A DNA stretch of 64,000 nucleotides from Massilia rubra (lineage in GTDB: Bacteria > Pseudomonadota > Gammaproteobacteria > Burkholderiales > Burkholderiaceae_D): assembly GCF_011682065.1 (NCBI RefSeq), contig NZ_VUYU01000035.1, positions 1-64,000 on the forward strand, written 5' to 3'. The position numbers were made by a program, and so were the translations under genes. Positions 28,485 to 63,552 of the stretch are shown piece by piece. The notes under the pieces were generated by a model that was given only the letters and a program-made list of their open reading frames with translations, had not been told where the DNA came from and ran no database searches. Each line of letters begins with the position of its first letter. Position 1 is the stretch's first letter.

Positions 28485-31031
28485 TCAGCCCTCGATCCGC
28501 TCCGCAACGGGCGAACCCTGCCTTGCGCGCGGCACCGGCTTGATGCGGGCCAGCACGCCGATCAGCTCGGCGGTGTTGGCCGGCTTGACGAAATAATGGT
28601 CGAAGCCGGCCTGCACCGCGCTGGCCTTGTCGTACTTGTTGCCATAGCCGGTCACCGCGATCAAGGTGGCTGCGCGCGCGCGTGCGGTGGCCCTGAGCCG
28701 GCGCGCCAGTTCGTTGCCATCCATGCCGGGCAGGCCGATATCGAGCAGGCAGGCGTCGGGCGCAAAGTTGCCCACGCTTTCCAGCGCGCGCAGCGGATCG
28801 TGCTCGACCATGACCACGTGGCCGGCCGATTCCAGTACCATGGCCATGGCGTTGGCGGCGTCTTTGTTGTCGTCGACCAGCATCAGGCGCAAGCCCTCGC
28901 CCGCATGGCTGCCGGGTCCGCGACTGGCCGCGCCGGCGCTGCCGGCCAGCGCGTGCTTTTGCAGGTACACCGAAAAGGTCGCCCCCTCCCCCGGCCCCGG
29001 ACTGGCCGCCGTCACGTGCCCGCCATGCAGCAGCACCAGGCTGCGCACCAGCGCCAGCCCCAGGCCGAGCCCGCCCTGCGAGCGGTCGGACGAGCGTTTT
29101 TCTTGCGTGAACAACTCAAAAATATGCGGCATCAGCAGCGCCTCGACACCGATGCCGTTGTCGCGCACGTGCAACTCGACCGTGTCGCCATGATGGCTGG
29201 CCTCGAGCGCGATGCGCCCGCCGGCCGGCGTGTACTTGGCCGCGTTGTGCAGCAGGTTGGTCAGCACCTGCACCAGCCGCTTGCGGTCGCCCATCACCGC
29301 CACCACCCCCTCGGCCGGCACGTCCAGGCGCAACTCGTGGCCGCGCTCGCTGATGAGCGGCTGGGTCTGCTCGACCGATTCCTGCACCACCTGATGCAGG
29401 TCGATCACCTCCTTGTCGAGCACCACCAGCCCGGTGTTGACCCGCGACACATCAAGCAGGTCGTTGATCAGGCTGGTCATATGATTGACCTGGCGTTCGA
29501 TGATGACACTCGACATCTTCACCCTGGAAATATTTTCCGGCGCCATACCCAGCAAATGCGCTGCGGAACGAATCGGCGCCAGCGGATTGCGCAGTTCGTG
29601 CGACAGCATCGCCAAAAATTCATCTTTGTGGCGCCCCGCCTCGCGCAAGGATTCCTCGGCACGCTTGCGGGCGCTGACATCGATCGATACGCCGCGTATG
29701 CACCTGGCATTGCCGGCCTCGTCCGCAACCACCGTGCCGTACACCTGCAACCAGACAAGCTGGTCATTGTCCGGGCGGCGCAGGCGCACCACATCGCCAT
29801 AGCTTCCATGACATTGGAGTGCCTCGCTGCGCGCAAGTTCCATCCGTTTCAGGTCGGCGGGGTCGAAACAGTGCCATACCTGGCGCATATTGGTCCAGTT
29901 GGCGCCGAACAGTTCGGGTGCGTTGTCCGAGAACACCACATCGTTGCTGTCCAGGTCCCAGTCCCACACCACCATGCGCGCCACGGTCAGCCCTTCCTTC
30001 AGGCGCAGCTCGCTGTGCTGCAAGGCCTGGCGCGCCATGGAGCGGTCGGTCACGTCGAAACCCTGCACGAAAATGCCGCTGACAGCGCCGTTTTCCAGGA
30101 TCGGCTGGTACACGAAGTCGATGTAGGCATGGGTCGGCGCGCTGTCGGGCGCCTGGCGCAGTTCGATGCGCAGGTCGCCCGCCTTGTACGGCATGCCGCT
30201 GGCATACACGCCATCGAGCAGCTCGACAAATCCCTGCCCCACCATCTCCGGCAGCGCTTCGCGCACGCTCTTGCCGATCAGCGCACGCTGGCCCACCAGG
30301 CGCAGGTAGGCCGAATTGACGAATTCAAACACATGCTCCGGCCCGCGCAGGATGCAGATGAAGCCGTGGGCCTGCTCGAACAGCAGGCGCAGGCGCATGG
30401 ATTCGGCTTCGCGCTGTTCGCGCAGGGCTTGTTCGGCGCGCAGGCGCTGCGAAGTCTGGATCGCTTCATGCCGCTGCGCATGCTCGCGCTGCGCGATCTG
30501 CTCGGTCAGGGCCAGGTTCATGCGCTCGAGCGCGGCTTTGGCCTTGTGCTGGGCGGTTACGTCGTTGCACACCACCAACACGCCGTGCACGCCGTCATGG
30601 TCCTCGATCGGACTGTAGCCGTAGGTCCACCAGACATCTTCGCGCCTGCCGTGGCGCGTGACCGGCACCAGCTGGTCTTCGTTCCAGGTGCTGCCGCCGC
30701 CGTTCATGACCAGTTCGATCTGGGGGCCGATGATGGGCCAGATTTCTTCCCAGCACTCCCGCCCGCAGCCGCCCAAGGCGCTCGGATGACGTTCCGGCCC
30801 CATGGTCTGGCGATAGGCGTCGTTGTAGAACTGCACCAGGTCCCTGCCCCACCACAGGAACATCGGGTGGCTGGACGTGAGGATCAGCCGGATCGTGCTC
30901 TTGAGCAGCGTGGGCCATTGTTCGGGTGGACCGAGCGGCGTCGCGCTCCAGTCCTTGGCGCGCATCAGGGCGCCGAGTTCTCCGCCGTTGGAGAGGAAGT
31001 CAAATGTCAAACGCATCCAGTGCCCGGTCAT
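28485..31031 (-). CDS. Hybrid PAS sensor histidine kinase/response regulator
   Basis: About 848 residues with no transmembrane segment, so probably cytoplasmic. Three PAS-type domains come first: one near residues 30-160 (FLWWGRDLVQFYNDAYRQ), then a coiled coil, one around 215-335 and one near 340-455. HisKA follows with SHELRNP (phospho-His478), then HATPase with an N-box near NLLHNAAKYTP and DNGIG/GLGLGLAL, and a C-terminal receiver with LVDDNKDAANA and phospho-Asp764. It would autophosphorylate in response to small ligands or redox. The output partner is not adjacent. A start at 31016 is also possible. Confidence 0.92.
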   Translation of the reverse strand: MTGHWMRLTFDFLSNGGELGALMRAKDWSATPLGPPEQWPTLLKSTIRLILTSSHPMFLWWGRDLVQFYNDAYRQTMGPERHPSALGGCGRECWEEIWPIIGPQIELVMNGGGSTWNEDQLVPVTRHGRREDVWWTYGYSPIEDHDGVHGVLVVCNDVTAQHKAKAALERMNLALTEQIAQREHAQRHEAIQTSQRLRAEQALREQREAESMRLRLLFEQAHGFICILRGPEHVFEFVNSAYLRLVGQRALIGKSVREALPEMVGQGFVELLDGVYASGMPYKAGDLRIELRQAPDSAPTHAYIDFVYQPILENGAVSGIFVQGFDVTDRSMARQALQHSELRLKEGLTVARMVVWDWDLDSNDVVFSDNAPELFGANWTNMRQVWHCFDPADLKRMELARSEALQCHGSYGDVVRLRRPDNDQLVWLQVYGTVVADEAGNARCIRGVSIDVSARKRAEESLREAGRHKDEFLAMLSHELRNPLAPIRSAAHLLGMAPENISRVKMSSVIIERQVNHMTSLINDLLDVSRVNTGLVVLDKEVIDLHQVVQESVEQTQPLISERGHELRLDVPAEGVVAVMGDRKRLVQVLTNLLHNAAKYTPAGGRIALEASHHGDTVELHVRDNGIGVEALLMPHIFELFTQEKRSSDRSQGGLGLGLALVRSLVLLHGGHVTAASPGPGEGATFSVYLQKHALAGSAGAASRGPGSHAGEGLRLMLVDDNKDAANAMAMVLESAGHVVMVEHDPLRALESVGNFAPDACLLDIGLPGMDGNELARRLRATARARAATLIAVTGYGNKYDKASAVQAGFDHYFVKPANTAELIGVLARIKPVPRARQGSPVAERIEG

Positions 31032-31168
31032 GGTCGCCGATAATGAGAAGTGGTATGCGCACCGCTGGGGCGCATGCCAGATCGTATCATTATTGTGAAA
31101 GCATGCGCCGTCCGTTTTGTCCAATCAAGGCAGGCCGACGACACCGCCCCGGCGCGGCGTCAACCGCA

Positions 31169-31933
31169 TCAGGTCCAGCCGGCGTCGACCACGAATTCCT
31201 GGGCCGTGATCATGCGGCTGTCATGCGCGCCGAGAAACAGCGCCATGCTGGCCACGTCGGCGCCGACGATGCGCCCTGGCAAGCACTGGTTGTCATCCAT
31301 GGCGCGCTCGCCGGCCGGGTCCACCCATTTGTCGAGCTGGCGCGGGGTCATCACCCAGCCCGGCGTGAGCGTGTTGACGCGGATGCCGCTCTTGCCGTAT
31401 TCGCGCGCCAGGCTGCGGGTCAGGCCGTTCACGGCCGACTTGGCCGTGGCGTACACCGGGTAGCCGGCCACCTTGTTCTTCCAGCCGGTCGAGCCGAGGT
31501 TGATGATGGCGCCGCCGCCGCGCCGCTGCATGCCTTCGATCACCGCCTGGGCCGCGAAGAACGCGACCTTCAGGTTGATCGCCATCTTGGCGTCGAAATA
31601 CTCCGGCGTGACGTGCAAGAAGTCGTGGCGCTCGTCGTTGGCGGTGTTATTGACCAGCACATCGAAGTCGCCCAGCTTCTCGCCGGCCGCCTTGACGCTG
31701 GCGCGCAGCGCATCGATATCGGACAGGTCGCAGCCGATGAAGTACGGCGTGTGCGCAACGGCGCCGGCCAGGCCGTCGACCAGTTCGGTGGACGAGGCGA
31801 TGTCGCGGTCGGCAAAGGCCACGCGCGCGCCCTGGCGCGCAAAAGCGGCCACGATATCGGCACCGATGCCGGAGCCGCCGCCAGTGACGAAAACGGCTTT
31901 GCCGGCCAGGCTGGGATAGTTCGCAAATTCCAT
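31169..31933 (-). CDS. SDR-family dehydrogenase, probable sugar 1-dehydrogenase
   Basis: A 254-residue short-chain dehydrogenase. TGGGSGIG (residues 17-24) binds NAD(P), NNTA lies in the fourth strand, and Tyr161-x3-Lys165 is the catalytic pair. It is the last gene of the galactonate cluster. Since that cluster lacks any other enzyme for the first step, it is the best candidate to oxidise D-galactose to galactonolactone (family members from relatives do this). That is inference from context. AGGA precedes the ATG. The upstream neighbour dgoA ends 46 bases away. Confidence 0.88.
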   Translation of the reverse strand: MEFANYPSLAGKAVFVTGGGSGIGADIVAAFARQGARVAFADRDIASSTELVDGLAGAVAHTPYFIGCDLSDIDALRASVKAAGEKLGDFDVLVNNTANDERHDFLHVTPEYFDAKMAINLKVAFFAAQAVIEGMQRRGGGAIINLGSTGWKNKVAGYPVYATAKSAVNGLTRSLAREYGKSGIRVNTLTPGWVMTPRQLDKWVDPAGERAMDDNQCLPGRIVGADVASMALFLGAHDSRMITAQEFVVDAGWT

Positions 31934-51619: not shown

Positions 51620-52621
51620 ATGGAAACAGCGGACGCGATCATCGCACTTGGCGCGGGCCAGTACCGCCTGTGCGGCCAGTTGGGCGGCTCCGCCTACGGC
51701 GTGGTGTGGCGCGCCACTGGGCCGGCCGGCGACGTGGCGCTCAAGCTGGTCAACCGCGCACAGATGGCGCGCGCCCATCCCCTGCAGCAGGAACGCTGGA
51801 TCGCCAGCGCCCGCAACGAAATCGCCTTCCTGCGCTCGCTCGCGCCCTGGGACGAGCGTCATGTGGTGCGCCTGCTCGACAGCGGCGAACACGATGGCTT
51901 GCCCGTCATGGCGCTCGAACTGCTCGACACCGATCTTGGCCGCCATATCGCCATCGAACGCGATGCCGGGCGCCCGATCACAAAAACGCAACTGCTCGAC
52001 TGGCTCGGGCAGATCAACCAGGCGCTGGCCAAGGTCCACCAGTACGGCTGGTCGTACCTCGACCTGAAACCGGCCAATGTGCTGCTCTCGCGCCGGAACG
52101 GCAGCGTCAAGCTGGCCGATTTCGGCACCAGCCGCCCGCTGGCCGACGGCCACGCCAGCGCGTACGCCGGCACGGCCAGCTGGCAGGCGCCGGAACAGTT
52201 TTTCCCGGACGCGAACGGCTACCACACCGACGCCCGCACCGATTACTTTGCCCTCGGGGCGCTGTTCTACTATCTGGTCACCGGTGGCTTGCCGCTGCGC
52301 TTTTGCAGCGAGTGCGGCCAGGCCTATCGCGAGCACCGTGGCGACGGCGCGGCCATGCTGCTGGCACGCCACGGCAATCGCCCTCCGCCCACCCTGCACG
52401 AGGATGAAGCGGCGCATTTCGCACGGGCCTTCGGCGCCCAGGCCGACGCCGGCACCTGGAGTCCGGACGACGCCCCGCACGACGGCGGCGCGGCCGAAGC
52501 GCTGCTCCTGCTGCGCGCCCTGCTCCATGCCGACCGCGCGCAGCGCCCGTGCCACGCCATGCAGATCAGCCGCATGCTCGGCGCCATCCGCGCCGCCCTG
52601 CCGGCGAGCGAGCGGCCATGA
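51620..52621 (+). CDS. Eukaryotic-like serine/threonine protein kinase, soluble
   Basis: A 333-residue protein, essentially one kinase domain with no membrane helix or sensor domain. Glycine loop GGSAYGVVW (22-30), Lys42, catalytic YLDLKPANVLL with Asp148 (the usual HRD is YLD), ADFGTS with Asp167, and QAPEQFF with Glu192. All essential catalytic residues are kept. GGGGGAAGC precedes the ATG at 51620. Its stop overlaps the ATG of the FHA-SEDS gene (ATGA), so the two are made together. It is likely to phosphorylate Thr residues read by the FHA proteins nearby (inference). Confidence 0.92.
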   Translation: METADAIIALGAGQYRLCGQLGGSAYGVVWRATGPAGDVALKLVNRAQMARAHPLQQERWIASARNEIAFLRSLAPWDERHVVRLLDSGEHDGLPVMALELLDTDLGRHIAIERDAGRPITKTQLLDWLGQINQALAKVHQYGWSYLDLKPANVLLSRRNGSVKLADFGTSRPLADGHASAYAGTASWQAPEQFFPDANGYHTDARTDYFALGALFYYLVTGGLPLRFCSECGQAYREHRGDGAAMLLARHGNRPPPTLHEDEAAHFARAFGAQADAGTWSPDDAPHDGGAAEALLLLRALLHADRAQRPCHAMQISRMLGAIRAALPASERP

Positions 52622-55008
52622 GGCACTTCGCGGACCGCTCGCCCGGTTTCCTCCTTACCGCCGCCCTGCTCGCGGTGCTGTGCCTGTTGCAGCTGGTGTG
52701 CCTGTGGCGCGCGCCGCCGGCCTGGTCGCCCGAGCGTATTTCGGTGCTGCTGCGGCCCGGCGAGTCGCTCACCCTGGGCAGCGCCGAACTGGCCGCGCCG
52801 CAAGCCGACAACGCCCATCTGGCCCTGCGCCGCGCCGCCGATGGCCACTGGTGGGCCAGCAATGCCAGCGCCGGCAAACAGGTGCTGCTGCAGCGCGACG
52901 GCGTCGACCGCCGCATGGGCTCGAGCGCACTGCGCACCGGCCAATCGTTCCGGATTGGCGCGGCGCGCTTCGATGTGGAAGACGCCAACGCGCGCCAGGT
53001 CGCCTTCTCCGGCCCCGTCGCCCAGTGGCGCTACGACGGCGCCACCCTGTACCGCAACGACAGCGCGCAGCCGGCCTGCCCCGACGCCGGCGTCGCCGCA
53101 CGCACCATCGCGCTGTGGAACCGCGCCATGCCGCAGGCGTTGACGGTGGCGCGTCCGCTGACCTTTGGCGGCAATCTGTATTGCGGCAACCGGCTTGGCA
53201 TCGCCTATGTGGAAGGCGCCAGCGCCACCATCGCACGCAGCAAAGAGGGCCTGCTGCTCGCGGGCGCCGCCGACCGCGCGCCGCTCCTGATCTCGTCAAG
53301 CGCCGGCCAGGTCGACCTGGCGCGCCGTGCGGAACCGCTGGCCGGCGTGCAAACGCTGGTCGCAGGCCGCACCCGCCTGGGTGTGCGGATCGACGATGGC
53401 GTGCTGCACCTGCTGCCGCAACGCCATGTGGCGCTGTACGCCGACGCCGATGCGCTGCTGCCGGCGCAAGTGACGTGGCAGTGGAAAAAGCGCGGCCTGT
53501 GGACGCTGCCGGCCGGGCGTGCATGGCCCGTTGCGCTGGGCCTGTGCCTGTTGCTGGCGGTGGCGGCGGCCATCCAATGGCAGCGCGGCGCCTGGCCTTT
53601 TACGCGCGCTACAAGCGATGCGGTGCGCGCGGCGGCGGCAGGCAGCGCGCTGCTGGTCATCGCCGGCGTGGCCGCGCTGCTGTCGCAGCGATCGGGCAGC
53701 GCGCCGGGGGTCGGCTGGTCGATGCTGCTGGCCTGGGCCGCGCTGTGGGGCTGCCTGCTGCTGCCCGCGCGCCTGACCCTGGCCAGCGCCGCCGGCGTGC
53801 TGCTGCTGGCGGTCGGCCTGCTGGCGCAGCTCGAACTCGGTTTCGGCGGCGCCGAATCGGCCGCGCTGCGCCACTTCCAGAAATCGGTGGCGCTGCTGGC
53901 GATCGGCCTTGGCATCAGCGCGCACCTGCGCCTGCGGGCATGGGCCGCCGCCCCGGCCATGCCGCAGGCCACCCTCGAATGGGTGCTCGCCCTGTTTGCG
54001 CTGGCGGCGCTGGGCGCGCTCCTGATGCAGGTCGTCTTCGGCGACGAAACCGGCGTGTTCGACTTGCAGCCGGTCGAATTTGCCAAGCTGGCCTTGACCG
54101 CGCTTACCGCGCACTGCCTCGCCATCGGCCTTGGCTGGCACGCGCACATGCCGGAGCAGTCGAGTCCCGCGCGGCGCTGGCTGCGCCTGGCCGCACCGGT
54201 GCTGCTGTTCGCCGCCCTGCTCGGGCTGGCCCTGGTCCAGGTGGACGATTATTCGCCCCTGATCCTGTTACTGGTGTGGTGCATGGCGATGGCCCTGGCC
54301 TGGTCGCTCGCCACCCGCACCCACGGCGCCACCGCCGCCTTGTTCGGCGTCGCTTGCGTGGCCGCCGGCGGCATCGCCTGGCTGCGCGGCGCCGGCGTGG
54401 CCGAGGTGGCGCAATGGGGTTTTTACGCCGACCGCTTCCTGGTGTGGCTCGACCCGGCCCAGCATCCGCATACCGGCCAGCAGTTGCTGCTGGCCGCGCG
54501 CGCCATCGCCGAAGGCGCGTGGTGGGGCGCCGACAGCCGGCTTGGCCTGGGCGCCATGGGCCAGGTCGGCGGCAGCGCTTTGCATATCCCGGCGGTGCAG
54601 GATGACTTTGCGCCCTCCTTCTTTTTGAACCGCCACGGCTTGCTGGGCGCACTGGCGCTGTGGGCCTTGCAGGCGCTGTTTTTGGTCGGCCTGCTGCAAA
54701 CGGCGGCGCGCGCCTTTGGCGCCAGCGAGCAAACGCGCGACTTCCGCCAGGCCTGGCTGTGGCGCTTCCGCTGCTTCGCCCTGTGCGGCGGCGCGGCCTT
54801 TGTGCTGGGCCACTTTTTGCTGTCGTGGGGGACCAACCTGGCGATCTTCCCGATCATGGGCCAGCCCATGAGTTTTCTGTCGGCCGGCGGCAGCCATCTG
54901 CTGTTTTTCATCTGCCCCCTGCTAACGTTCAGTGCAATCAGTGCGCAATCATTCGAGGAGAATCAACCATGCCGGTCTACGTCCAACATGAAGTCCTGGG
55001 CAAGGTGA
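52618..55008 (+). CDS. FHA-like domain fused to SEDS (FtsW/RodA/SpoVE) membrane protein
   Basis: A 796-residue protein. One helix (about residues 11-30) is followed by a soluble region to about 298 with an FHA-like fold at 37-122 (LTLGSAELAAPQADNAHLAL, FRIGAARFDV) and a second beta domain. Then come some 13 helices. The last ten match SEDS polymerases: QPVEFAKL (484-491), IPAVQDDFAPSFFLNRHGLLGA with the catalytic-type Asp663, and PMSFLSAGGSHLL (750-762). SEDS proteins polymerise peptidoglycan glycans together with a PBP. The FHA-like part lacks the usual Arg and Ser. It is translationally coupled to the kinase and overlaps the next gene by 40 bases. Confidence 0.88.
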   Translation: MRHFADRSPGFLLTAALLAVLCLLQLVCLWRAPPAWSPERISVLLRPGESLTLGSAELAAPQADNAHLALRRAADGHWWASNASAGKQVLLQRDGVDRRMGSSALRTGQSFRIGAARFDVEDANARQVAFSGPVAQWRYDGATLYRNDSAQPACPDAGVAARTIALWNRAMPQALTVARPLTFGGNLYCGNRLGIAYVEGASATIARSKEGLLLAGAADRAPLLISSSAGQVDLARRAEPLAGVQTLVAGRTRLGVRIDDGVLHLLPQRHVALYADADALLPAQVTWQWKKRGLWTLPAGRAWPVALGLCLLLAVAAAIQWQRGAWPFTRATSDAVRAAAAGSALLVIAGVAALLSQRSGSAPGVGWSMLLAWAALWGCLLLPARLTLASAAGVLLLAVGLLAQLELGFGGAESAALRHFQKSVALLAIGLGISAHLRLRAWAAAPAMPQATLEWVLALFALAALGALLMQVVFGDETGVFDLQPVEFAKLALTALTAHCLAIGLGWHAHMPEQSSPARRWLRLAAPVLLFAALLGLALVQVDDYSPLILLLVWCMAMALAWSLATRTHGATAALFGVACVAAGGIAWLRGAGVAEVAQWGFYADRFLVWLDPAQHPHTGQQLLLAARAIAEGAWWGADSRLGLGAMGQVGGSALHIPAVQDDFAPSFFLNRHGLLGALALWALQALFLVGLLQTAARAFGASEQTRDFRQAWLWRFRCFALCGGAAFVLGHFLLSWGTNLAIFPIMGQPMSFLSAGGSHLLFFICPLLTFSAISAQSFEENQPCRSTSNMKSWAR

Positions 55009-56498
55009 ACGATGTGTTCAACGCCGAAACCCTGTGGCAGGCGCCCGGCCTGGCCCTGTTCTCGCGCCGCCCGCTGCTGCGCGACCTGCTGGAACGCTCC
55101 CCGCGCGAGCACCGGGGCCGCGCTCCCACGCGCTGCTTCTCGCACATCACCCTGATGCTGGCGCAGGACGAAGTCGACGACGACCGCCACCTGACGCGCG
55201 GCGCCCGCGTGCGCGACCTGGCGCAGTCGCTCACGGCCCTGCACCAGAAAGATTTTGGCGACCTGCTCGGCAGCGACGACGTGCGCTACGACGTCGTCGG
55301 CACCGATGCGCTCGAACCGGGCCAGGTGGAAGTCAAGTTCGGCCACGCGGTCTACCTGCCGGCCGCCGGCGAGCAGCCCTTGTATACAGTGGAAACCTCG
55401 CGCGACAGCGCCATCTGGCAGGCGGTGTGCCCGATCTATCCGCAACAGCGCCTGGCGCTGATCGGTCACGACGCCGACCTGGCCAGCCACGCGGTACCAA
55501 GCTGGCCGTTCGGCACCGTCGGCGCCATTTTGCTCATTAACGATGGTCCCGACGCCCCGATCGAGGTGCAGGTGCGGCCCAAGGGCGCGTTCGACTGCGT
55601 GCTCGATGCGCTCAGCGGCCAGTACCTCGTCAGCGCCAGGGGCGACCCGGCCGCGCGCCTGCTGATGCGCGTGCGGCGCGCCGGTTCCGCCACAACGTCG
55701 GCCCCGATCCCTGCTCCCTCAGCCAAGCCGGCCGCCGTGTGGAAGCCGCGCGCTCCCGCCGGCATCGACAGCGGCGACACCGCGGTGCCCTTCAGCCACC
55801 GCCCGGCCGCCGCCCCGGTCGAAAGCGACGCCACCTACGCCCCGCTGGCGCGGCAACGTGTCAGCCTGGTCGGCCTGGCGCTGCCCTGCCTGTCGCGCTA
55901 CCGCGACACCGGCGCGGTGTCGATGGAGATCGGGCTGGCCCCGTCCCTGCTGCTGGCAAGCGACGGCGAAGCGGCGGCCCTGACCTTCGGCGTCAATGCG
56001 GACGACCAGTTGTACGCGCTCACCAGCGCCGGGCGCCAGCCGATTGCGGCGCCAGCCACCTTTACGCCGGTCGACGCGCGCACGGTCGAACTGCTGGCGG
56101 TTGCACCGGCGATGGCCGAGCGCTACTGCGCCGTGCTGCGCCTGCCGCACCCGATCGCGGCGCCGGTCGCCGGCGGTGCGCGCTTTGCCTTCGGGCGCAG
56201 CGCGCCCATGCTGGCCGCGCTGCGCGTGCTCGATTCGCCGCGCTTCCTGCACCTGGTGAGCGGGGCGGACAGCGCCAGCGCCGACCGCATCGGCCTCTCG
56301 CGCAGCGCCTTCAGCTTCGAGGCGGGGCCGAACGGTTACCTGATCGGGCGCCTGTCCGCCACCCAGGCGCTGTATCACCTCGACGACAAGCTCGCTTTTG
56401 TGGCCAGCATCGGCGAAGCGAGCGTCGAGCAACCGTACACGCTGCCCGCCGGTCACCATCTGGTGGCGGGCCACTACGTGCTGCGTTTCGACGCGTAA
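54969..56498 (+). CDS. Unknown protein with FHA-like C-terminal region
   Basis: A 509-residue soluble protein. The N-terminal 230 residues are a beta-rich domain I do not recognise. A Pro/Ala-rich linker follows at about 235-285. The C-terminal part includes FAFGRSAPMLAALRVLD...IGLSRSAFSFEAGPNGYLIGRLS, resembling an FHA domain (GRS, LSR, then a G-rich strand). It begins inside the end of the SEDS gene and is followed after 10 bases by an SH3 gene. It is probably a phospho-reader or adaptor for the kinase, by inference. Confidence 0.75.
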   Translation: MPVYVQHEVLGKVNDVFNAETLWQAPGLALFSRRPLLRDLLERSPREHRGRAPTRCFSHITLMLAQDEVDDDRHLTRGARVRDLAQSLTALHQKDFGDLLGSDDVRYDVVGTDALEPGQVEVKFGHAVYLPAAGEQPLYTVETSRDSAIWQAVCPIYPQQRLALIGHDADLASHAVPSWPFGTVGAILLINDGPDAPIEVQVRPKGAFDCVLDALSGQYLVSARGDPAARLLMRVRRAGSATTSAPIPAPSAKPAAVWKPRAPAGIDSGDTAVPFSHRPAAAPVESDATYAPLARQRVSLVGLALPCLSRYRDTGAVSMEIGLAPSLLLASDGEAAALTFGVNADDQLYALTSAGRQPIAAPATFTPVDARTVELLAVAPAMAERYCAVLRLPHPIAAPVAGGARFAFGRSAPMLAALRVLDSPRFLHLVSGADSASADRIGLSRSAFSFEAGPNGYLIGRLSATQALYHLDDKLAFVASIGEASVEQPYTLPAGHHLVAGHYVLRFDA

Positions 56499-56508
56499 GG
56501 ACAGTGCC

Positions 56509-56952
56509 ATGCCAAGCGCGAACTCCCTCACCGTGCTCGCCTACGCGGCCGGCCTGATCGCCACCCTGGTGCTGGCGGCGTGGCTCACGCCCGCGCGCTG
56601 GTGGCGCCGGCCGAACCTGCGCGCGGCGGGTATCCTGGCGGCCGGCACCTGGGGGCTGGGCGCCCTGCTGCTGTCGCTGCTGCCCGCAAGCGGCCCGGTC
56701 ATGGCCGCAGCCGCGCCGCCCTCGCCCTCCCATGCGGGCGTCAGCTACACCGTCTTCGACGACCTGAACCTGCGCGCGGACAAAGGCATCGGCGCGCCGC
56801 GCATCGCGGTGGCGCCGGCGGGCACGGTGGTCACCACGACCGGACTGCGCGACGGCGACTGGTGGCAGGTCAGCGCAAACATCGATGGCAGGCAGGTGCG
56901 CGGCTGGTCGAGCAGCCTGTGGCTGCGGCGCGCCGAGGAAGCGCGGCGCTGA
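56509..56952 (+). CDS. Membrane protein with SH3-type domain
   Basis: A 147-residue protein. Two hydrophobic segments (about 8-24 and 38-63) precede a bacterial SH3 domain at 80-140 (YTVFDDLNLRADKGIGAPRIAVAPAGTVVTTTGLRDGDWWQV...GWSSSLWL). Bacterial SH3 domains commonly bind cell-wall peptides. As the last gene of the kinase-SEDS operon it fits a cell-wall sensing role, by inference. ATG spacing is 10 bases after the previous stop. Confidence 0.85.
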   Translation: MPSANSLTVLAYAAGLIATLVLAAWLTPARWWRRPNLRAAGILAAGTWGLGALLLSLLPASGPVMAAAAPPSPSHAGVSYTVFDDLNLRADKGIGAPRIAVAPAGTVVTTTGLRDGDWWQVSANIDGRQVRGWSSSLWLRRAEEARR

Positions 56953-56957
56953 CCCTG

Positions 56958-57413
56958 TCAGCCAGGGCGCTTCATCGGGTTGAAGTACAAGCCATTCACG
57001 CATTGCATCGGCGCGGTGCGCTCGAAACCCATCGCTTCGTAGACCGGCAGCGCGTAGTTGGAGGCGTTGACGGTAAAGCTGCCATCGCCGCCGGCCACGA
57101 TCGCCGCGCGCCGCGCCACGTCCCACAAGGCGCGCGCGATACCGCGTCCATGGAATTGTTTGGCAACGAACATGTGGTACAGGTGCTGGCGCTCGCGCAC
57201 CGCAATGAAGCCGGCCAGTTCGCCATCGATCTCGGCGACGTGATAGGCATGCCCGAGGCGCAAAAACCCGTGAAAACCTTCTTCGTCATTGTCTCGCAAG
57301 AAGGTGGCCGCCGCTTCCGGCGACGATTCGTGGACGATGAATTCGATGGCGAGCGCGCGGAACAGGGCGGCGACGGCCGGGACATCGCTGTGCTCGATAG
57401 GACGGATGTGCAT
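56958..57413 (-). CDS. GNAT-family N-acetyltransferase
   Basis: A 151-residue acetyltransferase. HIRPIEHSDVPAVAALFRAL starts the fold, and HLYHMFVAKQFHGRGIARALWD contains the Q/RxxGxG/A acetyl-CoA loop. NASNYALPVYEAMGFERT is the typical C-terminal block. The substrate is unknown. It lies between the kinase operon and the MFS gene on the opposite strand and converges on the SH3 gene with 5 bases between. Confidence 0.9.
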   Translation of the reverse strand: MHIRPIEHSDVPAVAALFRALAIEFIVHESSPEAAATFLRDNDEEGFHGFLRLGHAYHVAEIDGELAGFIAVRERQHLYHMFVAKQFHGRGIARALWDVARRAAIVAGGDGSFTVNASNYALPVYEAMGFERTAPMQCVNGLYFNPMKRPG

Positions 57414-57529
57414 TATCGGTATGGGACGGTTGACAGAACGCTCATTGTGCACGTTTGGCCGCGAATGTGCAGGTCATTTGCGCCGGTATGTTGACGCACG
57501 GCACCAACGCGCTTTAGACTGGAACGATC

Positions 57530-58783
57530 ATGCCTAAACCGAGCCTGTCCGTACCGCTGCCGGCGCCGTCGCTGCGGCCCAAGGTGCCCTTGTCCAAGCC
57601 GCTGCGCCACGCGCGCTACCGGCAACTGTGGATCGCCAACCTGATATCGAACCTCGGTACCTGGACCCAGACCTTCGCCTCGGCCTGGCTGATTACCCTT
57701 GTGGCAAGTTCGGCCTCCACCGCCAGCCTGGTGCAGACCGCCAGCTATATCCCCATCTTTTTGTTCGCCCTGTTTGCCGGGGTGATCGCGGACGCCGTCG
57801 ACCGGCCCAAATTTTTGTTCTTCTGCAATCTGTTCATGGCCCTGTGCGCCTGCGTCATGGCGGCGCTGGCCATCAGCGGGCGCATTTCGACCGCGCCCGT
57901 GCTGGTATTGACGTTCTGCATGGGCGCCGGCGCGGCCTTCATGTGGCCGGCCTGGCAAGCGTCGATGTCGGGCCTGGTCGAGCCGGACGAGGTTGAAGCG
58001 GCCGCCACCCTGAACAACCTGAGCTACAACGTGGCGGCCATCCTCGGGCCGGCCCTGGGCGGACTGCTGTTCAACTGGGTCGGGGCCGGCGCGCTGTTCC
58101 TGGTCAATGCACTGTCCTTTGTCGGTTTGCTGACGGTGTATTGGTCGTGGTGGCGCGATGGCGTACCCGAGGTGCGCCCCAAGGTCGATTTTACAAGCAG
58201 CCTCAAGCTCGGCGTGCGTACCGCGCTTGGCTGCGCTCGCTACCGGCGCATCTTGCTCAATGTGTGCACGGTGTTTTTCTCGACGATTGCGTTCGCGGCC
58301 TTGCTGCCGGTGTTCGTCAAGCAAGTACTGCATAGGGATTCGAGCGTGTTCGGCATCCTGATGGGTAGCCTGGGCGCGGGCGCGGTGTGCGGCGCCTTCC
58401 TGCTGCCGTCGCTGCGTTGCCGTATCGGCAAGACGCACCTGTTAAGCGCGTCCTTGCTGGTGTATGGCGCCATGCTGTGCCTGTTGCCCTTCATCCGCTC
58501 GCTGGCCTTGCTGGTGCCGCTCATCGTGGCGGCCGGCATGGCCTGGTCGGCCACGGTGTCGACCCTGAACGCGGCGGCGCAGCTGGCTTTTCCGGCAAGC
58601 ATACGTGCGCGCACCCTGTCGATCTACCTGTTCGTCATGGCCGGCGGCTACACCCTGGGCAGCATGGCCTGGGGCGCGCTGGCCGACAAGCTCGGCGTGC
58701 AGGCGGCGCTGGCCGCCGCCGGCGCCTGCGTGATCGTCAACGCCATCGCACTGGCGACCGGAAAGCGGGAAACCTCCATCTGA
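57530..58783 (+). CDS. MFS transporter (MFS_3/EntS-like)
   Basis: A 417-residue protein with 12 predicted helices. RYRQLWIANLISNLGTWTQTFASAWL in helix 1, the AGVIADAVDRPKFL loop and QASMSGLVEPDEVEAAATLNNLSYNVAAILGPALGG are typical of the EntS-like drug/siderophore exporter branch. It precedes the PP2C gene by 67 bases on the same strand, so it could be co-transcribed, though no functional link is obvious. Confidence 0.9.
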   Translation: MPKPSLSVPLPAPSLRPKVPLSKPLRHARYRQLWIANLISNLGTWTQTFASAWLITLVASSASTASLVQTASYIPIFLFALFAGVIADAVDRPKFLFFCNLFMALCACVMAALAISGRISTAPVLVLTFCMGAGAAFMWPAWQASMSGLVEPDEVEAAATLNNLSYNVAAILGPALGGLLFNWVGAGALFLVNALSFVGLLTVYWSWWRDGVPEVRPKVDFTSSLKLGVRTALGCARYRRILLNVCTVFFSTIAFAALLPVFVKQVLHRDSSVFGILMGSLGAGAVCGAFLLPSLRCRIGKTHLLSASLLVYGAMLCLLPFIRSLALLVPLIVAAGMAWSATVSTLNAAAQLAFPASIRARTLSIYLFVMAGGYTLGSMAWGALADKLGVQAALAAAGACVIVNAIALATGKRETSI

Positions 58784-58850
58784 TCGTCGCTTTGGCGCGG
58801 CAAATTTTCCGATAAGCTGTCAGGATTGCCAACCATTCCGGCCACGCCCG

Positions 58851-59834
58851 ATGACAACAGCAGCTCCCAGCCTCGATTTTGGCCCCTATCTCGATGTGTC
58901 GGTGCATTCCAGCGCCGGCGCCGATGCGCCGCAGCGCCTCGAGAACCAGGATAATTACCTGGTCATCGACAGCGCCGGCAGCGCGGTGTTCCTGTACGAG
59001 CAGGCCGTACAGCGCCAGCAGGTGGCCGGCTGGCCGGGCGGCCACATGCGCGTGGCGGTGCTCGACGGCATGGGCGGCCACGGACGCGGACGCGAGGCGG
59101 CCGAGGCGGTCGTCGGCGGCTTGCTGGACATGCCGGCCTGCCACACCCTGGGCGAGCTGTCGGCCCGGCTCGACCTGCTGCATGCGCAGTTGCAAGAAGA
59201 GTTCGGCTGCGATCCGGTTACCGGCAAACGCCCCGGCACCACCCTGACCATGCTCGAACTGCGCTCCGGCAAGCCGGTACTGCTGTACCACGTGGGCGAT
59301 TCGCGCTTGTACGAAATTATCGATACGCAAGTTATACCGATGACCATCGACCACGTTCCCGCCACGGCCTTTGCGATGGGTGGCTTGCTGGGCGAGCACG
59401 AGTGGTGGCAGCAGGTGCATGGCGAGCACCGCTGCCAGATCTCGCAAGCCTTCATCCTGGGCAATGCGTTCGCCAATCCGGCCGAGCTGGCCGATGGCTT
59501 GTATGAGCTCTCGCCACGCAACTTGCCCTCGTATCTGTATCACTTGCCCGACCGGCGCGCGCTGGAACTCGATCCGCACGCGGTGTACCTGCTGGCCAGC
59601 GACGGTTTCTGGGCGTGCGCCGACCCGGGCGCCTGGCTGGCCCGTTGGCCGGCCCTGTTCAAGGCGCAGCCGGACGCGCGCGCCATGACCGACGCTTTGT
59701 TTGCCGAAATGAGCAGCAATCCGCCGCCCGAGCTGCACATCGACAACCTGACGGCCATCGTGCTGCGGCCCTTGGTCCACGATGACACGGCGGCGCCGAT
59801 AGCAAGCGAACAACTTTGCGGCGGAGAGCCTTGA
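58851..59834 (+). CDS. PP2C-family serine/threonine protein phosphatase
   Basis: A 327-residue soluble phosphatase. RLENQDN with Asp34, LDGMGGHGRG with Asp72, GTTLTM, LYHVGDSRLYE, LLASDGFWA and HIDNLTAIVL provide the metal-dependent catalytic set of PP2C enzymes. No regulatory or membrane domain is attached. It is the natural reversal partner of the kinase at 51620, and an FHA gene follows 117 bases later. Pairing is inferred from the locus. Confidence 0.92.
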   Translation: MTTAAPSLDFGPYLDVSVHSSAGADAPQRLENQDNYLVIDSAGSAVFLYEQAVQRQQVAGWPGGHMRVAVLDGMGGHGRGREAAEAVVGGLLDMPACHTLGELSARLDLLHAQLQEEFGCDPVTGKRPGTTLTMLELRSGKPVLLYHVGDSRLYEIIDTQVIPMTIDHVPATAFAMGGLLGEHEWWQQVHGEHRCQISQAFILGNAFANPAELADGLYELSPRNLPSYLYHLPDRRALELDPHAVYLLASDGFWACADPGAWLARWPALFKAQPDARAMTDALFAEMSSNPPPELHIDNLTAIVLRPLVHDDTAAPIASEQLCGGEP

Positions 59835-59951
59835 TGACTCGACAAGATGTTGTTTCAAAACACAAATATTGTTGTTAGGCACGGACGTTTGGCGTGCCGC
59901 ACTTCAAGAAAAGCGCGTATTCTTTGATACTCACGAACGGCGAATATTGCT

Positions 59952-61493
59952 ATGAAAAAATGCAACAACCCCTTGCATCCGCATTGCACCTTCTGGGTCA
60001 TGCCAGGGGAAACTGCATGCGCGAATGGCCATGGCCAGGCCGCCGTCGCTGTACCGGCCGCGGCTACGCCCGCGCCCGTGACCGCCCCAGCCAATTCCAG
60101 CTATGAGTTGATCAGCGCCCTGCGCAGCGCGCGCCCGAGCGCCAAGCCGGACGCGGCGCCGCTCGCGTATCCGGACCAGGCGCTGCCGGCGCTGCAGCGT
60201 CCGCACCTGCACATCAGCGGCTTCGACCCGCGCGCCGCTGGCGGACGCCAAGCCATCAAGGTCGAGCTGCGCGGCATGCCGCCCGACAGCGCGCCACTGG
60301 TCACCATGCAATTGCAGTCGGCCCTGATTGCGCAGGGCAACGCGCGCCACTCGTTCGTGCGCACCCTGCGCGGCGACTGGCGCCCGCTGTTCATCGAATT
60401 CTCCTCGCGCGACAAGGAACACGGGCAATACCGGATCGAGGTCGAGCTGTTCAACCTGCACGATGGCCGCATCCGCCATAAATGGGTGTGCACCCTGGTC
60501 ATCCTGGTGCCGCGTCCCGACGCCACCCTGACCGACATCCACCAGACTTTCCTGTCGACCCACAAAAACGTGCGCGTCATGGCGGACGACGCCTCCATCG
60601 CCCGGGTTAACGCCCAGGCCGGCGGTGGTCGGCTCGATATCGACGTGCATGCGCGCAACGCCTCGATCGCCCATTTGAACCTGGACGCCAAGCCGGGCAA
60701 GGTCGACATGGGCTTTTCGACCATTGCCTGGGATGAAGACCTGATCGAAATCGACGTGCCCGCGCATGCCGAGCCGCATCCGCACCCGACCGCCTGCGCC
60801 TGCCTGGTCAATGCGGCGCCCGAGCCCGGTTCGCAGCGCCAGGTGCGCCTGTTTGCCATGCCGGAGTGCGTGCTGGGCCGTTTTGAACTGTACGATCCGG
60901 ACGCCGACGTGCTGCTGACCCATTTTGGCGAAGACGGCCAGGACCGCGACGGCCTGACGCGCCGCCTGTCGGGGCGTCACGCGGTGATCCGGCGCGGCAT
61001 GAACGGTTTCGAGATCGAAGATGTGTCGCGCTATGGGATTTTGCTCGACGGCGTGTGGCCGGGCAAGAACAAGCCGGTGCCGCTACGGCTGGGCATGCGC
61101 ATCGAGCTGTCGGCCAGCATCAAGGGGATTGTGGTACTCAGTGTGACGGCGGTGATGCCGCACGGGGTGATCGTGCACCGCATCGACCAGGGTGCGCATG
61201 CCGAGTGTTTTTACTTTTTGGAGCCGGGCAAGCATCCGGGCTTCCCGGTGGCGCCGTTCGGCGCCGCGCCGAGGGCGGCGGTGATGCCGGTTCTGTATCA
61301 CCAGAACGGTGGTTTTTGGCATCTGGACCCGGCCACCGGCAAGGAAACCGCGCTCAGTCCGGGCGCGCCACTGGACCGGCTGACGCAGTTTGCGCGCCAC
61401 ACGCGCTTTGCCAGCGAGTCGTATCCGGAATGCTGGATCGTGCGCACGGCCCTGAAATCGACGCATGCGGCGGCGGAGATGCATACGGCTTGA
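59952..61493 (+). CDS. FHA-domain protein with zinc-ribbon-like N-terminus
   Basis: A 513-residue soluble protein. It begins with CNNPLHPHCTFWVMPGETAC and GH, a Cys/His knuckle. An unknown beta-rich region spans about 75-290. The FHA domain at about 300-395 has LGRFELYDP, SGRHAVIRRGMNGFEIEDVS and YGILLDG, with the Arg and Ser-Gly-Arg-His pThr-binding pattern intact. The C-terminal 110 residues are unknown. It follows the PP2C gene and is likely a phospho-Thr reader of the kinase, by inference. Confidence 0.88.
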   Translation: MKKCNNPLHPHCTFWVMPGETACANGHGQAAVAVPAAATPAPVTAPANSSYELISALRSARPSAKPDAAPLAYPDQALPALQRPHLHISGFDPRAAGGRQAIKVELRGMPPDSAPLVTMQLQSALIAQGNARHSFVRTLRGDWRPLFIEFSSRDKEHGQYRIEVELFNLHDGRIRHKWVCTLVILVPRPDATLTDIHQTFLSTHKNVRVMADDASIARVNAQAGGGRLDIDVHARNASIAHLNLDAKPGKVDMGFSTIAWDEDLIEIDVPAHAEPHPHPTACACLVNAAPEPGSQRQVRLFAMPECVLGRFELYDPDADVLLTHFGEDGQDRDGLTRRLSGRHAVIRRGMNGFEIEDVSRYGILLDGVWPGKNKPVPLRLGMRIELSASIKGIVVLSVTAVMPHGVIVHRIDQGAHAECFYFLEPGKHPGFPVAPFGAAPRAAVMPVLYHQNGGFWHLDPATGKETALSPGAPLDRLTQFARHTRFASESYPECWIVRTALKSTHAAAEMHTA

Positions 61494-61633: not shown

Positions 61634-62065
61634 ATGATGAAATCGAAAAACCCTATTGAACTTGCTGTGTCAAGTGCCTTGCCTGTTCCTCAGGTTGGGC
61701 TAACTGAGCCAACACCGCTATTCACTGCAAAAGATAAGTACTTTGTCGCAATGTGTTCGGGAGAATTCCCGTCGATAGCAGATGCAATAAGTGACACGCG
61801 TCTGCCGCCTGAAACCAAGGCAATGGGCGAGTGGCCCGCACTGCCAGGATCATCGAAAATTTTAGCGTTCAAAGCCCCGCCGCGAACAACCGATGACGAG
61901 AATGGCGTAGTCATCTTGATCATCGAGCCAGTCGCTCACGGGAAGGTGATTTTATGGTTAAGTGGTACCGATCTGGCACGCGAGCAGCGCGAGGACGCGG
62001 AAGACGACGTCGACAATTTTCTTGAGATTACCGGTGGCGAATACAAGATTTTCGAAAGGGTGTGA
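61634..62065 (+). CDS. Hypothetical protein
   Basis: A 143-residue acidic protein that I do not recognise. It has no signal peptide or membrane segment; AEDDVDNFLEITGGEYKIFERV ends it. Base composition is a little lower in GC than around it. No ribosome site is evident before the double ATG. It converges on the next gene with no spacer. Confidence 0.6.
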   Translation: MMKSKNPIELAVSSALPVPQVGLTEPTPLFTAKDKYFVAMCSGEFPSIADAISDTRLPPETKAMGEWPALPGSSKILAFKAPPRTTDDENGVVILIIEPVAHGKVILWLSGTDLAREQREDAEDDVDNFLEITGGEYKIFERV

Positions 62066-63433
62066 TCAGCCCGCTGTATCCACAACCTGGCCTCGTTCTT
62101 TTATGCGCCGTAACTGCGCCGCCTGATACGCCCCGAACACATCGTTGAACAAGCACCGGATCAGCGGATCGTCCACCAGTTCCGCACCGAGCAAATCGGC
62201 CTCGGTCTGTTGGTCGAACACCGCATCGTTCATGCGCATATACATGGAGGTGAGCGCCTCGCCCAGTTCCAGCGCCGCATACAGCCTGGCAACCGGTACT
62301 TCGGTGGTCCACGACAAGGCATCCGGCACGCCGGCCATCAGGTCGATCGTGTCGCCCTCGATGCGGTAATGGAAATGCGTGCCCTCCCCCGCATGATCGA
62401 ATACCGATAAACGCCACACGCGCGGCTTTTCGAAAAAACTCTCTTCCGGCAGTTCCATGCCGCGATATTTATCCAGCAAGCCCGAGGTGCAGTAATCGAT
62501 CACGCGCGCGTGTTCGTCGCTAGTGAGCGCCGGGAAATGGCGCGCGATATCGGCTGTTGGCGGCGGCGTCGCGTGGCCTTCGTACCGGTAATCGACGTCC
62601 TGCTCGCCGACCGGCACCACCCAGCTCAATGGCGGCGCGGCGTGGAGGCCATCGCGGTCCAGCACAAACGACACCGAAGGGTTCATCCGCACCACCTGCG
62701 CATCGGGCAATGCCGCGCCCACTTCTTGCTCGAACTGGCGGTAGGTGATCGGGAAAAACGCGTGGTTATACCAGGACCACGGCTCCTGCACGAACTGGCA
62801 GGAACTGGGAACGACATAACGCGGCTTGAGCGCCGCCAATTGCCCGATCCATTCTTCCGGCAGCTGCGGCGGCGCGGGCGACGCGCGCGAGGGCGATAAC
62901 ACTTCGATTTCGCGCATGGTCTGGAAGGGCCACAGCACCATGTCCCACGGCGCAAAGCGCGCCAGCGCCGGCAGCATGTCGGGATCGATCCACGAATCGA
63001 CGACATTGAGCACATTCAGGCCGCCAGCCTGGATGTGGAACATCGAGTCCACATCCGCATCCATGGCTTCGCGCGCGATCACCGTCATCGGGCCAACCTG
63101 CACCGGCGCGTCGAGGCGCAGCTGGTGCACCTTGCTAAACCCCAGTTCGCGCACCATGTCGAACAATTCGTCGAACACGCAGTAGATGTACAGCGGCGTG
63201 GCGCGGTCCAGCAGATCGAGGCTGTCGAACGAGCAGTGGTCGTCGTGGAAATGCGAAATGAAGACGGCGTCGAAATGCACCGCGCGGAACTGCGCGTGGT
63301 CGAAGCGCACTTCCGGAAAAGCGTGGCAATTGCGGCTGAACGGGTTTTCGACCACCGGATCGAAAGCGATGCGGGCGCCTTCGCATTCGAACACATAGCC
63401 GGCGTGGAGAATCCTGGAGATTTTGAGCGTCAT
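62066..63433 (-). CDS. MBL-fold metallohydrolase
   Basis: A 455-residue protein. The N-terminal half is a metallo-beta-lactamase fold with HFHDDH at residues 61-66, as in UlaG-like and lactonase-type hydrolases, with another His/Asp set near YVVPSSCQFV. The C-terminal 180 residues form a second domain I do not recognise (RVIDYCTSGLLDKYRGMELPEE, FHYRIEGDTIDLMAG), somewhat like the SCP2-type or Rieske-linked tail found in some members. The substrate is unknown. Starts at 63442 and 63457 are alternatives. Confidence 0.82.
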   Translation of the reverse strand: MTLKISRILHAGYVFECEGARIAFDPVVENPFSRNCHAFPEVRFDHAQFRAVHFDAVFISHFHDDHCSFDSLDLLDRATPLYIYCVFDELFDMVRELGFSKVHQLRLDAPVQVGPMTVIAREAMDADVDSMFHIQAGGLNVLNVVDSWIDPDMLPALARFAPWDMVLWPFQTMREIEVLSPSRASPAPPQLPEEWIGQLAALKPRYVVPSSCQFVQEPWSWYNHAFFPITYRQFEQEVGAALPDAQVVRMNPSVSFVLDRDGLHAAPPLSWVVPVGEQDVDYRYEGHATPPPTADIARHFPALTSDEHARVIDYCTSGLLDKYRGMELPEESFFEKPRVWRLSVFDHAGEGTHFHYRIEGDTIDLMAGVPDALSWTTEVPVARLYAALELGEALTSMYMRMNDAVFDQQTEADLLGAELVDDPLIRCLFNDVFGAYQAAQLRRIKERGQVVDTAG

Positions 63434-63552
63434 GGCCGCCATTATCTCATGCCGCATGCCATCCTAAAATGCATGGTGCGCCGGCCGATCGCCTATCATG
63501 GCGGTATTGACCGGGCATCCCGGTGGCTCAATTTTTTGCAAGTGGATAAACA

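Follow-up and report, generated by a model that had tools for sequence, protein, structure and literature searches.

Six genes at one locus

A 64,000-nt stretch of Massilia rubra DNA (RefSeq assembly GCF_011682065.1, contig NZ_VUYU01000035.1, positions 1–64,000; hereafter the window) was analyzed for a cluster at 51620–61493 that combines genes for predicted phospho-signaling proteins with a gene for a SEDS-type cell wall protein. All six genes are open, and they run in the order kinase, SEDS fusion, FHA-like protein, SH3 protein, PP2C, and FHA2:

51620..52621, + strand: soluble Ser/Thr kinase, 333 aa; Pkinase match, E 3.7e-31, above the Pfam cut-off
52618..55008, + strand: SEDS fusion, 796 aa; FTSW_RODA_SPOVE match on residues 478–766, E 1.6e-21, above cut-off
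54969..56498, + strand: FHA-like regulator, 509 aa, recognized by predicted fold; its ATG lies 40 bp inside the SEDS gene
56509..56952, + strand: SH3 membrane protein; two transmembrane segments (TMs) by eye and a C-terminal bacterial SH3 domain (SH3_3, E 1.6e-7)
58851..59834, + strand: PP2C-type Ser/Thr phosphatase, 327 aa; weak Pfam match, E 0.017
59952..61493, + strand: FHA2, 513 aa; FHA match, E 4.1e-6, above cut-off

The original prediction, made from the sequence of the window, had named these genes and their order and had noted an ATGA overlap between the first two. The genes are present as described, with the kinase stop codon and the SEDS start codon overlapping at 52618–52621. It had also suggested looking for the neighborhood in other Burkholderiales genomes, and a conserved kinase-phosphatase-FHA-SEDS neighborhood was borne out in related genomes. 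The genome collection yielded 178 relatives; the 80 best loci were kept and analyzed, with gene presence counted within about 10 kb. In 71 of these 80, the six genes share one order and strand, so the arrangement exceeds chance. The best 80 come from Massilia, Duganella, Rugamonas, Janthinobacterium, Telluria, Pseudoduganella, and one Herbaspirillum, and the remainder are a small number of records assigned to Oxalobacteraceae, Burkholderiaceae, or Pseudomonadota with no genus given. Massilia, Janthinobacterium, and Herbaspirillum belong to the Oxalobacteraceae, as do Duganella, Rugamonas, Telluria, and Pseudoduganella.

Gene by gene, the FHA-like protein was present in all 80 loci, the kinase in 79, SH3 in 77, FHA2 in 74, and PP2C in 73. 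Three short records (L045, L069, and L090) are missing SH3, PP2C, and FHA2, and SH3 loss is confined to these three; the record of L110 starts inside the SEDS gene and has no kinase, L086 is without FHA2, and L084 and L102 are without both PP2C and FHA2. With gene starts chosen by script, the SEDS and FHA-like genes overlap in 44/80 loci and are separated by a gap of ≤30 bp in all others, and the kinase and SEDS genes overlap or lie ≤20 bp apart in 53/79. The flanking genes encode an M28 peptidase (73/80 loci) and a glycine-zipper protein (72/80), and these shared flanks therefore indicate one chromosomal site.

A penicillin-binding protein heads a second gene group

The absence of a penicillin-binding protein (PBP) had been reported for this locus; this holds for the stretch that was read (the rest of the window was not scanned for other PBPs) but not for the genome, which contains a PBP of 1051 aa. 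In a family sample of 116 genomes from 44 genera, the SEDS fusion occurs in 18 genomes and 4 genera. The same 18 genomes carry the PBP, and none of the other 98 does. A search for a PBP gene that co-varies with the SEDS fusion, which the original prediction had suggested, thus had a clear outcome, and its proposal that the SEDS protein must borrow a PBP or act differently was not supported, since a dedicated PBP is found in 18/18 genomes with the fusion and 0/98 without. A lone SEDS protein without a PBP was rejected on the same distribution.

PBP and SEDS genes share a contig in 13/18 genomes, where they lie 14.5–27.5 kb apart. In the other five, including the window's genome, they are on different draft contigs, and the window's contig ends before the PBP group. 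Within the genus, SEDS was found in 15/17 genomes and PBP in 16/17; G1251 (100% complete) has neither. In G1255 (48% complete), the SEDS and PBP matches are broken by stops (C1:249751–252057 and 270460–273572), reflecting either decay or poor sequence.

The PBP matches the PF00905 transpeptidase domain (E 2e-13), and the motifs GSTFK, S[LIV]NTWF, and KTGT (SxxK, SxN, and KTG) are present in all 17 genomes with a spanning copy (16 family genomes plus G251, from another family). The G091 and G108 copies are fragments, and the motifs in G106 are spread over two frames. G106 (L166:5252–8160, L039) also lacks PP2C at the locus, possibly because of a decaying module or a sequencing error. Within NCBIfam, the transpeptidase domain is closest to PBP2/MrdA (E 1.7e-15, below cut-off). 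No further Pfam family, the dimerization/pedestal domain included, was matched in the PBP, which has a long N-terminal region, at E ≤ 0.05.

The PBP is the first of six genes in this second group. The next three code for proteins of about 415, 380, and 385 aa that are hypothetical and lack Pfam matches, and they are accompanied by genes for a 756-aa zinc-ribbon protein, with an SPFH match below cut-off, and a 772-aa kinase-FGE protein. All six were matched in order in 10/10 further genomes examined. The kinase-FGE and FHA2 genes are convergent neighbors with ends 0.2–6.2 kb apart in 9/10 genomes compared; G111, close to the window's genome, is the exception, at 12.4 kb. Its intergroup segment of roughly 12 kb (L152, G111:C23:428000–438000) contains OsmC-like, pirin-like, glucanase-like, and duplicated porin/phosphate-binding-like genes, named by eye.

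The SEDS fusion retains the catalytic aspartate and lacks the ECL2 motif

The SEDS fusion consists of a TM at 9–30, an FHA-fold beta region at 36–291 in which C154 and C189 are invariant, three extra TMs within 302–381, and a 10-TM core with the SEDS fold at residues 388–781. The FHA-like N terminus that had been suggested for this protein is supported by structure, not by Pfam. This part is predicted to be periplasmic, and no recognizable FHA phosphothreonine (pThr) residues were seen by eye; it was therefore rejected as a phospho-reader, a role left to the pair of separate FHA proteins.

The catalytic Asp, D663, which aligns with E. coli FtsW D297, is kept in 86/86 SEDS fusions and also in G251 and G600, two genomes outside the family. 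Equivalents of FtsW D297, Q147, E150, R246, P368, G371, and G381 are invariant in the SEDS fusion family. A decayed partial second copy of the fusion gene, retaining its start and some TMs, lies elsewhere in the window's genome (L040:9504–10181; G000:C20, about 30504–31181), beside genes that look by eye like murI and a fumarase gene.

Kinase, phosphatase, and FHA proteins

Only a kinase domain was matched by Pfam models in the 333-aa kinase, and no hydrophobic segment was seen by eye, in keeping with the earlier description of a kinase without a sensor domain. TM calls for the kinase, the phosphatase, and the SH3 protein were all made by eye. For the conservation counts of the kinase, PP2C, and FHA2, sequences below 70% of the length of the window's copy were dropped and identical ones were merged. 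K42, D148, N153, and D167-F168-G169 are invariant in 85/85 distinct kinase sequences; the HRD motif reads YLD in 79 and HLD in 6, making this a non-RD kinase. The phosphatase has an NCBIfam match below cut-off (E 4e-10), and its PP2C motifs are invariant in 77/77 sequences.

In the predicted structure of the FHA-like protein, an N-terminal alpha/beta domain (about 19–125) is followed by an FHA-like sandwich (129–241), a low-confidence linker with the conserved threonines T271 and T289, and a C-terminal FHA fold (294–509) with conserved R410, S444, and R445. None of 16 members has a Pfam match. In Foldseek, no match reached E ≤ 0.001, and the best FHA match had E 7e-3 with a probability of 1.00; VIA Z scores for FHA-domain fold matches were 8.6 and 8.7, barely above the level that the tool calls common. 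GarA, OdhI, and DgcB structures rank among the fold matches. In these proteins, a phosphorylated tail is bound by the protein's own FHA domain. The FHA-like protein likewise has conserved threonine in a flexible segment that directly precedes an FHA-like domain, and phosphorylation of its tail is predicted.

The overall layout, an N-terminal globular domain, a linker, and a C-terminal FHA domain, resembles that of FhaA as described in PMC11898655. By eye, the order of helices and strands in the N terminus is also like that of FhaA_N (PF12401), and homology is suspected rather than confirmed: no Pfam match to this family was obtained for the N terminus or in the window's own genome, and there was no relevant PDB sequence match. 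The FhaA N-terminal domain is absent from the listed fold matches, which excludes nothing.

FHA2 has an N-terminal Cys/His ribbon (C4, H9, C12, C23, and H27) and FHA-domain residues R310, S340, and H343, all invariant in 79/79 sequences. The two separate FHA proteins, one of them with conserved linker threonines, are likely to be the phospho-readers of the system. The SH3 domain of the membrane protein is probably periplasmic.

Relatives outside the family

The FHA-like family was found in 7/399 genomes of the order, 3/369 of the class, and 2/398 of the phylum, counts that include the window's own genome; distant members may be missed because only three to four candidates were scored per genome for nearly all. 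G251 belongs to a different family of the order; its kinase, SEDS, and FHA-like genes lie together, and the PBP gene adjoins the kinase gene in divergent orientation and codes for 1054 aa, with a transpeptidase domain match at E 8.7e-15. G508, of the same genus as G251, lacks both the FHA-like gene and the PBP. In G600, from another order of the class, SEDS and FHA-like genes are side by side. The surroundings of the G251 SEDS and PBP genes (L130:1265–6717, L164) encode an AAA-type ATPase, a PP2C, and caspase-FGE proteins, with a second caspase-FGE homolog and a zinc-ribbon/SPFH homolog further on.

A proposed phospho-controlled wall synthase

We consider it probable that the locus is half of a module of about twelve genes for a third SEDS–class B PBP peptidoglycan synthase under cytosolic phospho-control, beside two ordinary SEDS proteins. 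Direct backing comes from the gene order, the co-occurrence of the PBP, the intact signatures of the kinase, phosphatase, FHA2, and PBP, and the catalytic Asp of the SEDS core. Peptidoglycan as the product, phosphorylation at T271/T289, the direction in which control runs, and the nature of the signal are inferences. The SEDS fusion would polymerize a special wall and the 1051-aa PBP would crosslink it, and the periplasmic FHA-fold part and the SH3 protein would hold the two enzymes in position. The soluble kinase would phosphorylate the FHA-like protein, with T271/T289 in the linker as the most likely sites, and PP2C would reverse this. The phosphorylated tail could be bound by the FHA domain of the FHA-like protein itself or by FHA2, and the FHA-bound tail would then switch the complex from the cytoplasmic side of the SEDS protein. 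The second group, through its kinase-FGE and zinc-ribbon/SPFH-like proteins, may supply an upstream signal, perhaps membrane stress.

No described match for the module was found in the open-access literature. The nearest known system in its logic is the actinobacterial pstP locus, as presented in PMC6554272, and the module would be a proteobacterial counterpart of it. As in pstP-rodA-pbpA-pknA-pknB-fhaA-fhaB, a SEDS protein, a PBP, a Ser/Thr kinase, a PP2C phosphatase, and two FHA proteins are linked. In contrast to that locus, the Massilia kinase is soluble, with neither PASTA domains nor TMs by eye, and no TM was seen by eye in the phosphatase; the PBP belongs to a second group at the distance given above rather than to the same operon; the SEDS protein has a predicted periplasmic FHA-fold domain and no ECL2 (extracellular loop 2) motif; and kinase-FGE and SPFH-like genes are added, with two ordinary SEDS proteins besides. 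The fusion resembles the SEDS partners of FtsW-FtsI and RodA-PBP2 in its 10-TM core and catalytic Asp, but it differs from FtsW and RodA in its N-terminal TM, beta region, three extra TMs, and missing KGAxRW segment. Likewise, unlike FtsI and PBP2, the PBP has a long N-terminal region with no other Pfam domain at the threshold used.

If the proposal is true, Gram-negative bacteria equipped with two ordinary SEDS proteins have, in addition, a dedicated peptidoglycan synthase that is controlled by Thr phosphorylation. Relatives of Massilia would then have an extra wall-enzyme pair wired to protein phosphorylation in the way known mainly from Actinobacteria, which would offer a setting outside mycobacteria for learning how FHA adaptors communicate with SEDS enzymes. 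Because this SEDS family naturally lacks the ECL2 motif, it would also make the loop requirement of SEDS catalysis directly testable. A bolder version goes further: a separate proteobacterial SEDS subfamily, with a periplasmic FHA fold and no ECL2 motif, and its own PBP would build a special wall polymer or site, switched by Thr phosphorylation of an FhaA-like adaptor, as a second bacterial wall synthase under phospho-control, either assembled independently or acquired by horizontal transfer, with chemistry unlike that of FtsW or RodA. We hold this version only tentatively.

Several observations weigh against a phospho-controlled peptidoglycan synthase. The ECL2 segment (KGAxRW; K133, A135, R137, and W138) is deleted in 86/86 SEDS fusions and in G251 and G600, and the positions of FtsW P196, L198, G199, R243, and Y379 are replaced in 86/86. 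Substitutions at these nine positions in E. coli FtsW are listed as dominant-negative and non-complementing in PMC8765783, so polymerase activity of the fusion is not assured. The two ordinary SEDS proteins of the window's genome have K or N, A, R, and W at the ECL2 positions; one of them has Gln at the R243 equivalent, so that change alone means little. The co-occurrence of PBP and SEDS counts few independent events, because the 18 genomes represent 4 genera, and in G1256 (81% complete) the PBP is present but no SEDS match was obtained. The kinase has no known substrate. PP2C is missing from the G106 locus and from L104 and L114, where FHA2 is kept. No kinase, PP2C, or PBP query match was found in the fetched stretches of G600, where only a PBP-like N-terminal piece was detected, terminally placed on a different contig (E 1.3e-11), nor in the fetched stretch of G730, where the FHA-like gene is near a contig start.

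The strongest alternative is that the SEDS fusion has lost its role as a peptidoglycan polymerase and, with the PBP, handles another envelope glycan or acts as a sensor or scaffold, with the kinase and FHA proteins relaying inward. We regard this as rather unlikely, given that the D297, Q147, E150, R246, G371, and G381 equivalents are all invariant and that a PBP with intact transpeptidase motifs tracks the fusion.

A stress or conflict module resembling defense systems, with wall synthesis or damage as its output and triggered through the kinase-FGE, SPFH-like, and G251 caspase proteins, appears improbable. It would fit the kinase-FGE protein and the zinc-ribbon protein with its weak SPFH match in the second group, as well as the AAA protein, the two caspase-FGE genes, and the zinc-ribbon/SPFH homolog near the G251 SEDS and PBP genes; PMC7159879 describes conflict systems built from FGE, FHA, and zinc-ribbon kinase/PP2C parts, but its main text never mentions FtsW, transpeptidase, or penicillin. 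The M28 peptidase and glycine-zipper flanks point instead to one stable chromosomal site. PADLOC matches for 10 proteins were to kinase domains (best mad6, E 2.8e-35 and 1.3e-57) and a caspase (E 3e-10) only, and seven proteins had no match; a defense system proper was rejected on this result. A phage origin was also rejected, with no PHROG match among 4 proteins.

It is very unlikely that the six genes are neighbors by descent only, without shared function. The single ancestral chromosomal site and shared flanks would allow it, but order is preserved while transporter and acetyltransferase genes come and go inside the cluster, gene starts overlap or touch, and the SEDS and FHA-like genes are kept together in another family (G251) and another order (G600). 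PpkA/PppA/Fha signaling of the type VI secretion system displaced beside a SEDS gene is scarcely credible: FHA2 has a weak TagH match (E 0.028, FHA region only) and VipB, the one marker used, occurs somewhere in 16/18 searched genomes, but VipB is at least about 93 kb away where both share a contig and is absent from the other two SEDS-fusion genomes, G003 and G251 (other type VI genes were not searched), so the link that the original prediction had named as a possible refutation was rejected.

Other genes at the locus

Two further genes lie between SH3 and PP2C and were not counted in the module:

56958..57452, − strand: GNAT acetyltransferase, present in 41/80 loci
57530..58783, + strand: major facilitator superfamily (MFS) transporter, present in 27/80 loci

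Downstream of FHA2, at 61634–63457, are a small hypothetical gene and a gene for a 463-aa protein. These occur in only 2 and 4 of the 80 loci, respectively, and the conserved block therefore ends at FHA2 on this side.
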